From: Punctularia strigosozonata HHB-11173 SS5
Taxonomy: Eukaryota; Basidiomycota; Agaricomycetes; Corticiales; Punctulariaceae
Direction of reading: 5' to 3'
NCBI RefSeq assembly: GCF_000264995.1
Contig: NW_006767433.1
Location: forward strand, 1,520,876 to 1,584,875
Length of the DNA: 64,000 nucleotides
The notes beneath the pieces were generated by a model that worked only from the letters and a program-made list of their open reading frames with translations, ran no database searches and had not been told where the DNA came from. Made by a program: the position numbers and the translations under genes. Numbering within the stretch: the first letter of the stretch is position 1; the number at the start of each line of letters is the position of its first letter. Positions 25,285 through 54,456 of this stretch are shown here, in pieces.

Positions 25285-27275
25285 CTTGCAAGGTTGACGA
25301 AGATGGGCGCTGGGGCCGCTTTTTGAGAGGGAGGAGGGTGAGGGTGAACCGGTGATGACTGAAAATAAGGTTCAGCCATATTGGGGGGTGCCACGCGGAC
25401 CGTGTGAACTATACTCTGACTCTTGCGATACCATTTGCGATAAATCTGTAGTGATTTTTCCTCGCCTTTACCTGACGATGCTTGGTGACATACAACCCTG
25501 GGACGGTCGTACTCGTCTGCAACGTCTTGACGGACCTCCTGTGCCAGCATATTTCATGGATAGAACAAGGCTTTTGTCCGAGCAAGACAGTCAATTGTGC
25601 AATACTTCCCAGTCACACGATCATGAATGACATCTTGAGCAACATCGATCCCAGCTTGGCTTGCATCATTATACTCGTACTACTGGGATCGTATGTCTTA
25701 GCGGAAGCGTTTCACTGTGTCTCAAGTTCTCGTCAGGATGAGACTTGCTCTCATCTCCTCGAGGTGCTTCGAACGATATCGATTGACGACGATGGATGAT
25801 CACGCGCCGAGGGCGCGGATGTTCGCAATCTGGGTCGCCTCTCAGCAGCTACCAGGAAGCGGTCCCGGTTTGCCCGGTTTGCTGTGCTAGAATGAGCGAT
25901 GCAGGTTCCGGAGTCTTCGCCTGACTCCTCCAAGCCCCTATTGCTGGGAAATATGATGGTCCTGCTATAGGGCTGCCTGCGCCGACTGCTATTCCGCGGA
26001 GAGGCGGTTCAAGGTACCTTCGAGCGACGGCTCAGGACGTTCAGACGCTGTGTTCGCCTTGACCGCGCTGTGCATGTTACTGTACTGTGGCCGCAGCCAA
26101 GGGCATCCGTCGCCGAATGTCGGTCGTCAGCCTGAGAACAGTGTGGATACTCTGGCCAGCGATATCGCAGGTGTCGATGGACGCGCACAAGCAAGCATGT
26201 ACGGGCTTGTACAATTATATACGTTCGTCGGCTACCAGGGTTTACTTCCGTACCTGATCCTGAAGGACGCCCCTCTCGGCCTCGTCGAAGCTGTGGCTGA
26301 GGGAGGGCCAGAGCGGACACTTGGCGACCACGTCCTTGTTGTTTGTGGACGCGAAGGGGACCAATTCGGTGTTTCACCGCAGATCCGGTACCACGTACGC
26401 TGATGTCGCCAGAGCCCTCAATATTGCAGGATAGACCTGGGAAGGTGGCTATTGTGTTGTGGGCTGCAGCATCAGAACGACCTTGTCCGAGTAGAGTTGT
26501 ATTATTTGCAATTGACGGGTTCGAATGTCGTAGGCCGGGCTTCGTGGGCGGGGTTGGAGGCCGAATCGAGAACAACAATATGAAGAGTATTGTGTTTACG
26601 AGGGAACCGGCCGTTGCCGCTTCCGGTTTTGGACGGGGTCTCTTTGTGTTCGAGCCAGCCGGCGTCGCTTCGTCTGTCTTGCTTTTGTTGTCCTGTTGCG
26701 TGGCCTATACGCCGGGCGCGGGTGCATTGTCTCGGCCATCGGCCGCTTCCCTCCCACAGATGTATAAGAACTAGGTCGTCGGTGACTATGGATCCCTCAC
26801 CCCAGGATTCATTTCCTCCGCTGCCGTTCTAATACATTTATCTATCCCCCATTAATCTTGCTAGGTGAGGATCACTGCCCAGTCTGCCGATCCTGACTCC
26901 TCGATCTGACTGCTGTTGACTCCTGTCCTTCCGCCTATTCTTTGATCCGTCCTTGTCCCGCCCCGCGCAGCTCGTTAGGTAAGACTGCTCTCAGCCTCAC
27001 CGGCCGGCACTACATAAACCGCAGAGCTGACAAGCAAACTTTTCTGCTAGACCTTCGTTATCCTCGAGGAGTCCCTCCCTTTGCTACGCACCCAACGCAC
27101 ACGAGTCCAGCGTTCCCGACGATTGCCCATACGCACCGCCCATAATCTTTCCGCGAGCAAGTTAATCCCGCACCAGCCCATCGCAGGTCGATCCCACTAT
27201 CAGCCAGTTCCATAACTTTTCCTTCTGCATTCGACCAACCGAATCACTCTCATTCTCGACTCCCTGATCATCGCA
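25285..27275. other. Intergenic region, no supported gene
   Basis: No recognised product. Overlapping open frames of 117 codons on plus (26050-26403) and 189 codons on minus (26578-26009) compete for the same bases without family resemblance. From about 26860 to 27275 the plus strand is C/T-rich, which fits a promoter and leader of the strongly codon-biased BTG gene. Confidence 0.4.
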
Positions 27276-28265
27276 ATGGCCTCGCCCTCTACTTCGCTCT
27301 CCGTCACCGTCGCGCACGCGATCTCTTACCTCACCCGCGGTCTGGCCGCAAGCTACTCCCAGGCTTCCATCGCCCGCCTGCAGCTCGTCCTCGAGGCCAA
27401 TCTGATGGCGCATTACGCACCTTCCTGGGTCCCCACCGAACCGCTCCGGGGATCGGGCCGTCGCTGCTTCACCCTCTCCCCGAACGCACTGCCTCCACGC
27501 CCCATCCACAACGCCTGCATGTCCGCGAACGTCAAGTGGTCGGACTGGATCGCCGCCCTCGGCGGCGTCGAGTTCGATCTCTTCGTGGACCCCGGCTGCG
27601 TCTCAGTTCGTTTCGCGGGTGCCCAGGGTGCCGCCACCAAGTTCTTCACCGTGTGGTCGGAGGAGGTCGATGCCGAGCAGAAGCTGCAGGCGCAGAAAGC
27701 CGCCGCTGAGGCCAGACTCCGTGCCAACCTCGACGCCCACGCTGCGCTCCGCTCTAGGACATTCGCCCAGCAGCTGCTCCAGCACGATGAGGACGAGGAG
27801 AACGAGCTTTTCGCCCGCATCGCTCAGGAGGTCCATGAGCCGACGTTCAAGACCCCCACCGTCGACCGCTTCCCTCCCACCCTGAGCCTCAACGTCCACG
27901 TCCCTGCCCGCCGCAACGCCGTCTCACCCGCGATCTCCACCGTGTCCACCCACTCGCGCTCCAGTTCGTCCTCCTCGATGTCGAGCTCCGGCTTCTCCTT
28001 CATGTCGACCGATTCGTACGACTCGGACACCACCGTTTCGTCCGCTTCCTCGTCCTCGACCGCCGGCTCCAAGCAAAGCCGTCGCGAGCGCGCTCGCCAG
28101 CAGCGCGTCTTCATCGACTCGACCAGGAAGGAGGTCACCCCTTACGACGGCGGCAAGACCACGGTTCTCACGGGTGGCGTCATGCTCGGCGCGAAGCCCG
28201 CCGCTTCGTCGCACCGCAAGACCGGCTCCAGCGCTTCGGCCAGCTGGCGCGCCATCCGCGCATGA
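27276..28265 (+). CDS. BTG/Tob (anti-proliferative) domain protein
   Basis: Single-exon gene, 329 residues, with a BTG domain at about residues 8-125. Box A reads LMAHYAPSWVPTEPLRGSGR followed by RCFTL, aligning with the animal signature (Y..HWYPE.P.KGS.YRC). Box B reads GVEFDLFVDPGCVSVRFAG, aligning with ELTLWVDPGEVSYRIG. In animals BTG/Tob proteins bridge the CCR4-CAF1 deadenylase to mRNA-bound factors and slow growth; the same role here is inference. After the domain come a Gln/Lys/Arg helix, a Ser-rich region and a basic tail with SRRERARQQRVFIDSTRKEV and TVLTGGVMLG. GC-rich, strongly biased codons and no intron, unlike nearly all neighbours, suggest high expression. Confidence 0.82.
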   Translation: MASPSTSLSVTVAHAISYLTRGLAASYSQASIARLQLVLEANLMAHYAPSWVPTEPLRGSGRRCFTLSPNALPPRPIHNACMSANVKWSDWIAALGGVEFDLFVDPGCVSVRFAGAQGAATKFFTVWSEEVDAEQKLQAQKAAAEARLRANLDAHAALRSRTFAQQLLQHDEDEENELFARIAQEVHEPTFKTPTVDRFPPTLSLNVHVPARRNAVSPAISTVSTHSRSSSSSSMSSSGFSFMSTDSYDSDTTVSSASSSSTAGSKQSRRERARQQRVFIDSTRKEVTPYDGGKTTVLTGGVMLGAKPAASSHRKTGSSASASWRAIRA

Positions 28266-31944: not shown

Positions 31945-32856
31945 TCAGGTGAAGAACCTAGCGTATGCCGATGGCGGGAGAGCACAAGGCCAGGCGCCCG
32001 ATGAGACGGAAGTCTCCCAGACTGTCTGCGAGGAACGAAATAGATCGAGCGCTGCTCGCGCTTGCTCCAGCTGGGAGAAGCGCATTATGACGCAAGGTCT
32101 GAGACTGCATATCGGGGCGACTTACTGGGTGCTCGTACTCTTGGGGTAGCCTGGACATCTCACGCCGCATCAGACCATGCATCAGCGTCGGGAGGCTGAC
32201 CAGGCTGTGGCGCTGTAGCGTTCTCCGGAAAGGAAGGAAAAGCGCAACATCGCGAGTGTTGATGGCCGGGTGAGGGAGCTCCAGTACCGACAGAAAGTTC
32301 CAAAGGCTGTGTCCAATGATGATTTTGCCCGCGATCCTCTGAGCCACCAAGGCTTTCACCTGGTTCAAAGGAAGGGCGTGCGGACCATAGAGGTGCTCCG
32401 CCTGTAAGCCGGTCTGGGCCGTGCGATAGTCCGTAATGTGTTGACTATGTAAGATACGATCAGCACGTAGTTCAAAAGCTGCATTTGCATGACTCACGTG
32501 GGCTGCACAAAGCAATCGAGTAATGCTTCTCCTCGATAGTTGGTGATTGATACACGACTATTAGGAACCCAGTTCAGATATGGCGACGAGGCACTAAGTA
32601 CCGAACAAAGGCGTACGCGACGATGCACTGAGTACCGGCCCTGAATGAACGAAACGTCAGTCATGAATGCGGAAAGAAAGCTGAACCAAGTTTACGCACA
32701 ATACCACCTGAGCTGCGACGGCTAAGTATCTACTTGAGCGGTCAGCAAAGATGCCCCGATACGAAGGACAATACCTCACTTATCATTCGAGTGAGAGCCG
32801 CCGGACCCACTCGATGCGACGGACGACGGCGAGTATGAAGTAGGATAAGAGGTCAT
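31945..32856 (-). CDS. REX4/RNase T-like exonuclease fold without catalytic acids (pseudoenzyme)
   Basis: Five to six exons join in phase to about 230 residues of the DEDDh REX4/ISG20 type: YLAVAAQVV, ITNYRGEALLDCFVQPT, ITDYRTAQTGLQAEHLY, VAQRIAGKIIIGHSLWNFLS, LPHPAINTRDVALFLPFRR, LVSLPTLMHGLMRREM and EHPLEQARAALDLFRSSQ. In active relatives the corresponding places are D-C-E-M-V (ExoI), GHSLWND (ExoII) and H-x4-D before AR (ExoIII). Here these read A-A-Q-V-V, GHSLWNF and HPLEQAR, so all four carboxylates are replaced, while the scaffold is kept. The ExoII and ExoIII changes are read directly in long exons; ExoI depends on a short exon near 32706-32729. Start at MTSYPTSYSPSSV. The intron before LEQARA starts GTAAGT. 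Either a scaffold protein or a decaying copy. Confidence 0.68.
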
Positions 32857-33816
32857 GACTGCGAGTATAATTTTCGACTCAATGCGACCAAGTACGAGGA
32901 TCGAAATGGCCTGGGGTTCGTTGGGAGGCGTGTCTCTGGGGATGCGCTCGGCGCCTGGACCTCCTCCATTGCAATGCATGGGTATTTAAAAGCATAACCA
33001 GAGTTCATTGAAAACAAGCAGGTTACTGACGGCGCGGGCGGCCACGGTCGATTGGGGGCATACTCTCATAGATCAGATCGAAGCCCGAGCTCCGAGGTCT
33101 CATAACGCGTAGGGCACCTGTCGTCGACGAAATGAGTAGTGCGACGACTTAACTCACGATCTCTCAGCTGCGGGGCGTGCATCGCCAGTCCGGGACCGAC
33201 CCGCCACGCAGAGTTGAGGCAGGGGTTGGTTACCGGTGAATCTGTCGTTGAACTGAGGACTTCGATTGATGCTCCATACGCGGATCCGCAAGGTCGGGGC
33301 CTGAAGTAGACTTATCGCCCAAGCGAGGACGCCGCCGCACATGTAAAGTTCAAGCCCTCGCCGACGCGAAACGGTCAAGTCCATAAGGCAACGCGACCGT
33401 CGGCGCCCGCTTGCTCCGAGATGAGCGCGGACGGGGAGCTTCAACGAGCATGCAGTGAAATGGCGGGGGAGAGCTCTGCATTGGGACTCGGATCGCCCTG
33501 TTGTAGTCATATCATGGACGATACAGGCAATACGCGCCCCAAGACGCGGTTGGGCGGGAGCGACGTGGTAATTGAAGGAGGCGCAGCGGATCGCGGCTCG
33601 GCTACCGACGTCTTCAGCCACACCTTCCGCATTCGGCCCGGCAAGCACACGGTGATCAAATACGGCCCTTTTTATAAAGCTACATCTTATCTAGCAACTA
33701 ATGGTAATCTGTTAACGACAGGCTGGCCGGTATATATCACAGAGCCTTCTGATAGCGTACGCTTGTCTAATGTCAGTGGCGTCCCGCAGCTCGCACAAAG
33801 CACCGAAGGCACAGCT
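32857..33816. other. Intergenic region between two minus-strand genes
   Basis: A 202-codon plus frame (33421-34029) and a 164-codon minus frame (33648-33154) overlap here. Neither shows a family pattern; the plus frame runs antisense into the last BIO2 exon. I read the region as BIO2 3' flank plus promoter of the exonuclease-like gene. Confidence 0.4.
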
Positions 33817-52401: not shown

Positions 52402-53896
52402 TCACCAAAACTGAGGCTGGCCTCCATCACTCCTGCCTCTGCCCCTACCCCTACCATGACCCTGGCCTCTGCCACCGCTGCCCTCACCACCATGACTTCC
52501 GCCTCTAAACCCGCCTCGTCCCCTGCCCCTACCTCTTCCCCGCCCTCCATCCGTACCGTTGTCTGAGCCCTGACCACGCCAGTAGCCACCTCCTCGCCAA
52601 CCTCGTCCTCGGACATAGCCCCTGGTTGGGGCTTCACCTTGTGCACGACTGTTCACAGAAGGGAAGGTGTTGACGGGGCCATCGATGCGACTCTGCGCTG
52701 CATACGTCCCTCCAACGGGAGTAATGATATGTGAACTGATGATAGGCTGGTCTAGGACAGCGACCGCGATGGGGACACCCTCCAACGGCAGGTGGCCCGA
52801 TCCTGATGGTATAGTCCCGCTACCACCAGCCTGTTCCTTTGCGCGGGCCTCTAGACGTAGCCTTCGCTTTTCTTGCTTGGCCTTGAGTTTCTCCTCTTTC
52901 TCCTTAGGATCTGGCATGGGGCCAGGATCATAGTTGGGATTTTGAGCTTGCCACGGTACCGCGCTGGGAAGCGTAAATGTGCTGGAATATACAGCAGCTC
53001 CATCTAGGCAGTCGAATGAGTAGTATTGTGCGGGTGTCGGATTCTCCATCGCCGCGAGGAGTTCAAGGAGGTGGTTGTAAATGGCCAGACCTGCGTGAGC
53101 ATCGTTCGCAGCGTCTACATTTCATCCTATCAATCAATGGATCGAGTACTATAGCGTCGATCCCGCAGCTTACATTCCTGCTGCTTGTCGCTGAGTAACG
53201 CCTCCCAATTGCTCCTCTGTATCTTCCCCTTGCCTTCCAGGGTGAATCCTTTGTATGTCTCGAGTAGCCTAGCCAAGCCTAGCGGGTGGCTATATTTGCC
53301 CTTCCAGTTCGCGTTGTCCACGGAGCGCGCAAGGAGCGCCAGCTCTACGCAGCTGCGAACGTTGATATGGTAGTCTCTGAAAAGCTTTTTGCAATCATCT
53401 GCGAACCGTATAAGGAATTGTCATGCGCCAACGCAGGAGGCTGGACGGCACCTAAAATAGCGACTCCAACCTTCCGTTGAGCGGGATTCTCGAGCAAAGT
53501 CTTCAAACGTTGGGGGAATCCTGTCGCAGTTTCAAGAGGCTCGCCCTCTCTGACGACATCGATTTACATACGTTGCATGGCCGAAACCTGGAGTAGCAGC
53601 GTAAGGGTGCTGCTGGCAATTTGCACAAGTGCCACAGGGTTTTGTGGCGCATCCTTTACGAAGACCGGCTTCCATTCGAGGTCAAAGCCAACAGGCTCGT
53701 CTGCCTGTATACCCGAGAGCACATCATCTGCTGTGATGTGGTCACGGATATAGAACAGTCTCTGCGCCGGCGAGACGGTACGCCAGGAGTATACGGGCAA
53801 GTCGGAGGGTGGTTTCGGGACCTTCTTCTTTCTCCTTGACTGCTGTTCAGACGCGCTTGAGGCCGCTATCGCAGCGGGAGGTAACCTGGTGGCCAT
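52402..53896 (-). CDS. DEDDy 3'-5' exonuclease (WRN-exo type) with RGG-rich tail
   Basis: RNase D/WRN-like exonuclease domain. ExoI is VGFDLEWKPVF (D-x-E present), ExoII is KVGVAILGADDCKKLFRDYH, and ExoIII is YAANDAHAG (Y-x3-D), rebuilt across an intron (T|AC split codon). Between them are VALVQIASSTLTLLL, VELALLARSVDN and LGLARLLETYKGFTL. All catalytic residues are present, so it should be active. After the domain come SFDCLDGAAVY, a Lys/Glu-rich helix (KEKEEKLKAKQEKRRLRLEA) and a glycine/arginine-rich C-terminus of about 60 residues with repeated GRGRGRG, which suggests RNA or nucleolar binding. The ATG at 53896 begins MATRLPPAAIAAS; an upstream in-frame ATG at 53992 would add an Arg-rich leader, possibly mitochondrial, so dual targeting is conceivable. 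Confidence 0.85.
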
Positions 53897-54456
53897 GATG
53901 GGGAGAACGGCAGGAACGGCTCGTCTTAGACTGGCCGTCAGACGGCGGAGCTGTAGCCTCATGCGAAGGTGGCGATGTTCGATGCTGTCCAAAACATTGA
54001 GTGTTCACGTGACGTACGGGGCCCAGACTCGCCACGCTTGTGGCTGTGTAATATTGCTAAAAACAGTCCGCTTGGTCTTTTTCCATCGCAACTCTTGCCA
54101 AGGCCCGTGGCACGCAACGGTCCGAAGTCCTCATCAGCACAGTAACTGTCGCGTCGCTCGCTATCCCTACGTCCTCCCGCATTTACATCGCGAAAGGCGT
54201 CATTGCTTGTGCTCAATGCTAATCTTGAGCTCACCGATACGTATTTGAGCACTGGGCTCAGTTATATTGGAGCGCCACCGACGGACGTCCGAGAAGTCGG
54301 AGCCAAGCATAATATGGTCTTGGCATCCGTCTATCTTTGCCGGCCTGGCCTAAGTTTAGATGACCGCTCCTCTTGGCCGCCTTCATAAGGGCGTGCTCCT
54401 CTCAACGGATCGACGACTCGCTTGGCATCCTCAACACCTTGCGCAGAGCTTCCACC
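53897..54456. promoter_or_regulatory. Divergent promoter with TCACGTGA at 54005-54012
   Basis: About 560 bp between divergent genes. A perfect 8-bp palindrome TCACGTGA lies 109 bp from the exonuclease start, the type bound by bHLH factors. Short frames near 54203 look non-coding. Confidence 0.4.

Follow-up and report, generated by a model that had tools for sequence, protein, structure and literature searches.

A REX4/ISG20-branch exonuclease gene of Punctularia strigosozonata, probably maintained without its catalytic acids

The gene described here, on contig C1 of the Punctularia strigosozonata assembly (33.6 Mb, 32 contigs), probably encodes a maintained protein of the REX4/ISG20 branch of DEDDh 3'-5' exonucleases that has lost catalysis and now binds rather than cuts. 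It lies within a window of 64,000 nucleotides (C1:1520876-1584875, the whole stretch of DNA analyzed here), and the best reading is that, together with a second copy farther along the same contig, it makes up a dispersed pair of pseudo-exonucleases beside a normal REX4.

The gene model is complete and runs on the minus strand over six exons, from an ATG at 32856 to a stop codon ending at 31945, exactly the extent given in the preliminary description of this DNA. The reading frame (636 nt with the stop) encodes 211 residues and has no internal stops, and the five introns of 50, 59, 59, 53, and 55 nt are all of the GT-AG type, which agrees with the earlier statement that frame and splice sites look intact. 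Intron density and size would fit a basidiomycete. A short exon had been placed at 32706-32729; its end at 32729 is correct, but its start is not, the exon being 32700-32729. The features are as follows.

Exon 1, 32780..32856, minus strand: start codon and Ser/Gly-rich N-terminus MTSYPTSYSPSSVASSGSGGSHSND(K), from the gene model and the splice-chain search described below
Intron 1, 32730..32779, minus strand: 50 nt, GT-AG, with a CTGAC branch-like site
Exon 2, 32700..32729, minus strand: ExoI motif, (K)YLAVAAQVV, with A-A-Q in place of D-C-E
Intron 2, 32641..32699, minus strand: 59 nt, GT-AG
Exon 3, 32617..32640, minus strand: (L)AGTQCIV(A), which closes the ExoI region; the second copy has three residues more here
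Intron 3, 32558..32616, minus strand: 59 nt; site and phase (2) match an intron of the second copy, by eye
Exon 4, 32498..32557, minus strand: RVSITNYRGEALLDCFVQP(T), from the gene model
Intron 4, 32445..32497, minus strand: 53 nt, not present in the second copy
Exon 5, 32126..32444, minus strand: QHITDYRT...GHSLWNF...EYEHP, where GHSLWNF is ExoII with F for D; an unbroken stretch that two introns interrupt in the second copy
Intron 5, 32071..32125, minus strand: 55 nt; site and phase 0 common to the second copy and REX4 (EHSS/VTD), by eye
Exon 6, 31945..32070, minus strand: ExoIII as LEQARAALDLFRS with Q for D, followed by the tail WPCALPPSAYARFFT and the stop codon

The loss of all four catalytic acids, which had been proposed from the window alone, is borne out by comparison with the intact REX4 of the same genome (C10:748.3-749.0 kb, with motifs ALDCEMV, FND, and VTDAR). 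This locus at C10:748 kb we take to be REX4 from its match in the own-genome protein search, named by eye. In MAFFT alignments that include both proteins, ExoI goes from ALDCEMV to AVAAQVV, ExoII from GHAIFND to GHSLWNF, and ExoIII from VTDAR to LEQAR, and the phmmer alignment to ISG20L2 contains the same motif replacements. The acid positions are therefore replaced in four of four cases (D to A, E to Q, D to F, and D to Q). Where a DEDDh exonuclease carries the D-x-E of ExoI, the Asp of ExoII, and an ExoIII Asp with a His five residues before it, the window protein has A-A-Q, a Phe (TTT), and a Gln with a Glu, respectively. The change of the general-base His to Glu, with a His one residue away, was absent from the preliminary description. 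The replacement codons are GCA, CAG, TTT, and CAA; the changes D to F and D to Q require two base changes each and the changes D to A and E to Q one each, with the GCA codon showing one additional silent difference from any Asp codon. By eye, the former ExoIII Asp is the third codon of exon 6, and the alignment here is anchored by the intron that REX4 and both copies have in common in position and phase.

The homology of the window protein to ISG20L2 and REX4 is, on the strength of its sequence similarity, real and not a matter of chance. A phmmer search of the PDB with the full protein matched ISG20L2 (7yw5) with an E value of 7.8e-20, ISG20 (1wlj) with 1.8e-12, and plant SDN1 (5z9x) with 3.1e-11, and this significant similarity over the exonuclease domain supports membership by descent in the REX4/ISG20 branch of the DEDDh family. 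(In ExoIII the deposited ISG20L2 chain of 7yw5 reads VEAAQAT, as compared to VEDARAT in ISG20, and may have been inactivated by design.) The protein may be closer to REX4/ISG20 than to REX1, REX3, or SDN1. An unrooted eight-sequence tree groups REX4, ISG20, and ISG20L2 at 73, with a stem of 0.80 for the two copies, and the phase-0 ExoIII intron favors REX4 in a comparison that covered REX4 and both copies. The Pfam RNase_T profile (PF00929) gave no match to the window protein even at E<=10; it scores 24.9 bits for the second copy (cut-off 24) and 44.9 bits for the REX4 domain of this genome. A single-sequence AlphaFold prediction of exon 5 alone had a mean pLDDT of 50.6 and is not interpretable.

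The earlier statement that the scaffold is well kept turns out to be too strong. Taking as conserved those columns identical in REX4, ISG20L2, and ISG20 (49), or a looser set from REX4 and ISG20L2 (70), and leaving out columns gapped in REX4, ISG20L2, or the target, the window protein keeps 28 of 49 non-catalytic columns vs. 0 of 4 acids (Fisher p 0.043), or 35 of 70 in the looser set (p 0.12). The second copy keeps 28 of 51 columns vs. 1 of 4 acids (p 0.33), or 37 of 72 in the looser set (p 0.61). The difference between the acids and the remaining conserved columns is modest, and this counts against the reading given here.

The second copy is located on the same contig at 2.894 Mb.

Second copy, C1:2894473-2893611: 194 aa, six exons, open frame, GT-AG introns

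It is identical to the window protein at 90 of 190 aligned residues (47%) and has lost three of the four acids, with ExoI reading STS (S, S) and the ExoIII D replaced by R, while it retains the ExoII Asp and the general-base His; the acid replacements differ between the copies. Two intron sites are common to both and three are private to each, by eye. A segmental duplication was considered and set aside, as among the window ORFs of at least 70 aa only the REX4-like one matched the surroundings of the second copy (24 kb around it, cut-off E<=1e-4). Near C1:2894.4 kb an out-of-frame ALDLEV overlaps the GVGPGG codons and adjoins the replaced ExoI motif; we judged it a chance reading, since the GVGPGG frame aligns with REX4.

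To describe what such a protein might do, we begin from the chemistry of the family, in which DEDD enzymes use four conserved acids to position the metal ions that hydrolysis requires (PMC12934764, in part). Because the window protein lacks these four metal-binding acids, it would offer no carboxylates for two metal ions and would not be expected to hydrolyze RNA by the family mechanism. The residual fold and the C-terminal tail, WPCALPPS, may instead serve binding, most likely of single-stranded RNA 3' ends (the pre-rRNA ends trimmed by REX4 would be an example) or else of a protein partner, and the bound protein would then shield, tether, or regulate rather than cut. By analogy with Maelstrom, Exuperantia, and PML-1 such a binding role seems plausible. 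In yeast, Rex4 trims off the final six nucleotides of the 25S 3' ETS, although its deletion causes no growth defect (PMC11417381, in part); pre-rRNA 3' ends would therefore be a natural candidate ligand. A pI of 9.1 is predicted for the window protein and would suit RNA binding, whereas the 7.0 predicted for the second copy does not particularly, and a basic character is accordingly not common to both.

This neutral second copy also enters the account in which the protein has given up its RNA contact and acts as a regulatory subunit or as a scaffold between proteins, binding through its tail, a possible role that we regard as somewhat unlikely. Nowhere do the copies have a longer identical run in common than WPCALPPS itself (eight base changes and no residue changes), it sits outside the exonuclease core, and no tail of this type was seen in our reading of the genome's own REX4. 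A search of the genome with the tail pattern found four places, with none in the control, and two of these are the copies; by eye the other two look unrelated and hold no related gene. Such a tail hints at a partner. Against this account, the core runs IGHSLWN and DYRTA are likewise kept in both copies, and we know of no partner for the pseudo-exonuclease. A search with the core pattern GH..W is at chance level, with 11 places in the genome (the two copies included) vs. 12 in the control, and six of the remaining nine look unrelated by eye and were not taken as further family members.

The gene may instead be decaying: the activity may have been lost first and the frame may be open only because decay has not broken it yet, in which case we would be looking at a future pseudogene. 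We consider this relaxed constraint unlikely, though several observations are compatible with it. In the eight-sequence tree, where the copies are grouped at 100, the branch of the window copy is the longer one (0.73 vs. 0.36), one relative-rate test of five gives a low p value (0.043 with the REX1-like outgroup; REX4 0.38, ISG20L2 0.71, ISG20 0.25, REX3-like 0.21), the RNase_T match has been lost, and 21 of the 49 conserved non-catalytic columns, or 35 of the 70, have changed. The excess in rate is non-significant for four of the five outgroups, and in the count relative to ISG20 it is the second copy that has more unique changes than the window copy.

The synonymous divergence of the two copies speaks for a maintained gene. 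Differences fall at 132 of 190 third codon positions, 83 of 190 first positions, and 60 of 190 second positions, and of the 84 residues common to both copies (Met and Trp excluded) 53 use different codons. The value of dN is 0.55, and dS is saturated by the NG86 method, for which reason we use only the position counts and dN. Residue differences are BLOSUM-positive in 41 of 101 cases, a bare count that comes without a neutral yardstick. Any selection acting after the loss of the acids would have to be judged from this single pair of paralogues.

We then simulated neutral change directly, evolving the genome's own REX4 domain without selection over seven distances with an assumed transition bias of 2 and 0.1 indels per substitution. 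Runs that lost the four acids and kept a frame with no stop numbered at most 22 of 20000 (0.11%, the peak, at distance 0.2) over the range 0.02-0.2 and at most 5 of 5000 at distances of 0.3-0.8, and multiplying the marginal frequencies by the estimated survival of splice sites and indels brings the figure to at most 4.3e-6. On these frequencies plain decay of the window gene is unlikely. The same frequencies speak against relaxed constraint, as do the two replacements that require two base changes each, the GT-AG borders of all five introns, and the tail with its synonymous changes only. An open frame and splice sites that persist despite the loss of catalytic residues are the marks of a pseudonuclease, and the window gene has both; the earlier proposal of a pseudoenzyme kept in frame is consistent with the simulation and with the existence of a second open-frame copy carrying its own replacements. 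Repeat-induced point mutation (RIP) or AT-biased decay was rejected, with a composite RIP index that is negative in 64 of 64 one-kb bins of the window and replacements that are not of a single base-change type.

A very recent loss, which had been offered as the alternative, is disfavored for two reasons: D to F and D to Q need two base changes each, and the copies, both without the ExoI acids, are saturated at third positions. The order of events admits more than one history. The ExoI and ExoIII acids may have been lost once, in an ancestor, with drift thereafter, or they may have been lost twice and separately, and since the second copy retains its ExoII Asp, not all of the losses can be common to the copies. 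If the acids were lost separately in each copy, the loss in the window gene could be younger than the duplication, and if these separate losses also came late, part of the constraint seen between the sequences would predate them. As a more specific conjecture, and a rather doubtful one, the pair may form an old fungal family whose ExoI and ExoIII acids disappeared either ahead of the duplication or shortly after it, with the dead domain sitting on the RNA 3' ends that REX4 trims, the tail recruiting a partner, and the dead copies pacing the active REX4.

That the fold might still cleave RNA through other residues is very improbable. Maelstrom has been called an endoribonuclease despite an absent DEDD motif (PMC7968707, in part), and in the window protein the GH of GHSLWN is still present and a His adjoins the former general-base position; against this, acids remain at 0 of 4 positions in the window copy, and inspection of the alignment by eye shows no new Cys/His cluster common to both copies.

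The least certain portion of the gene model is its 5' end, for which we carried out a splice-chain search that could begin at any ATG, ended at the fixed exon-4 acceptor, and took its scores from comparison with REX4 and the second copy; the splice patterns and intron length limits were chosen once the model had been obtained. The best of four open chains has the same three 5' exons as the gene model, and 2 of 400 dinucleotide shuffles score as high as the real chain. That another exon or start restores D-x-E and leaves an active enzyme is hardly tenable despite this uncertainty, as no minus-strand frame of 31945-32856 contains D-x-E (which rules out a hidden exon there), the only one in 32401-33400 is found ahead of the start codon, near 33161, and the ExoII and ExoIII exons align clearly with their Asp lost regardless.

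Protein searches of the assembly, in which the best candidates were scored, gave at least two pseudo-exonuclease copies and, besides REX4, matches that we presume by eye to be REX1-like (C9:177 kb), REX3-like (C4:883 kb), PAN2-like (C8:1487 kb), and, weakly, POT1-like (C9:819 kb). The ExoI D-x-E is readable in each of the REX4, REX1-like, REX3-like, and PAN2-like domains. The Pfam RNase_T search of the genome added two places on C10 that appear ERI1-like and oligoribonuclease-like by eye. The REX4 gene itself has an apparent GC-AG intron after NDLK (AAG/GCAAGT), again by eye. No relatives were confirmed in the viral_contigs, genome_contigs, and phages collections, the search among fungi having covered this assembly, and none of the matches listed in a search of titles and abstract openings, with most subscription journals outside its scope, concerned an inactive fungal REX4 paralogue.

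Two further features of the window may be recorded here. A DEDDy exonuclease with its acids had been described at 52.4-53.9 kb, and this holds to the extent that pieces with D-x-E and with AANDA can be read: on the minus strand between 52405 and 54004, FDLEW (D-x-E) occurs in 53567-54004 and DAANDAHAGLAIYN in 52405-53121, the C-terminal part is Gly/Arg-rich, and Pfam gave no match per exon at E<=0.01. On the plus strand, 27216-28262 holds a BTG-family ORF (PF07742, E 9.3e-18), the sole Pfam match (E<=0.01) among five nearby ORFs scanned.

Among known systems, the window protein resembles most closely REX4/REXO4, ISG20, and ISG20L2 (DEDDh, PF00929), with which it shares homology across the domain and the DYRT, GH, HP..TRD, and ARA motifs, and, in the case of the genome's own REX4, an ExoIII intron of the same site and phase. 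It differs from them in lacking the four acids and the general-base His, in its added C-terminal tail, and in falling below Pfam detection. More distant parallels exist in other proteins. Exuperantia and the PXL domain of PML-1 are not known to derive from REX4, and Ssd1 and Dis3L2 differ from the window protein in belonging to the RNase II family, which has an unrelated fold, and in being larger.

The MAEL domain of metazoan Maelstrom is a likeness in kind, a DEDD-type fold minus its acids that is reported to be an RNA-binding module with an active nuclease as its origin, and Bombyx Maelstrom, from which DEDD is gone, shows no activity and binds ssRNA (PMC4408791, in part). Maelstrom is nevertheless an animal protein with an ECHC zinc site and was not among the phmmer PDB matches of the window protein. 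Exuperantia and the PML-1 PXL domain are likewise DEDD-type pseudonucleases, and PXL has a single acid left of the four, shows no activity, and binds nucleic acid; it differs in having its nearest structural neighbors in Exu, Plex9.1, and other DEDD nucleases and in its SAM-like part (PMC12934764, in part). Within the fungi, the active site has been lost in at least four lineages of Dis3L2/Ssd1, a repeated loss of RNase activity in which the protein is retained as an RNA-binding factor (PMC8097288, in part). DEDD pseudonucleases are already known from animals, and fungal pseudonucleases from another RNase family. Two REX4-branch paralogues that differ in what replaced their acids, in a genome that also has an intact REX4, would offer a compact natural experiment in the reuse of an RNA-trimming fold for binding.
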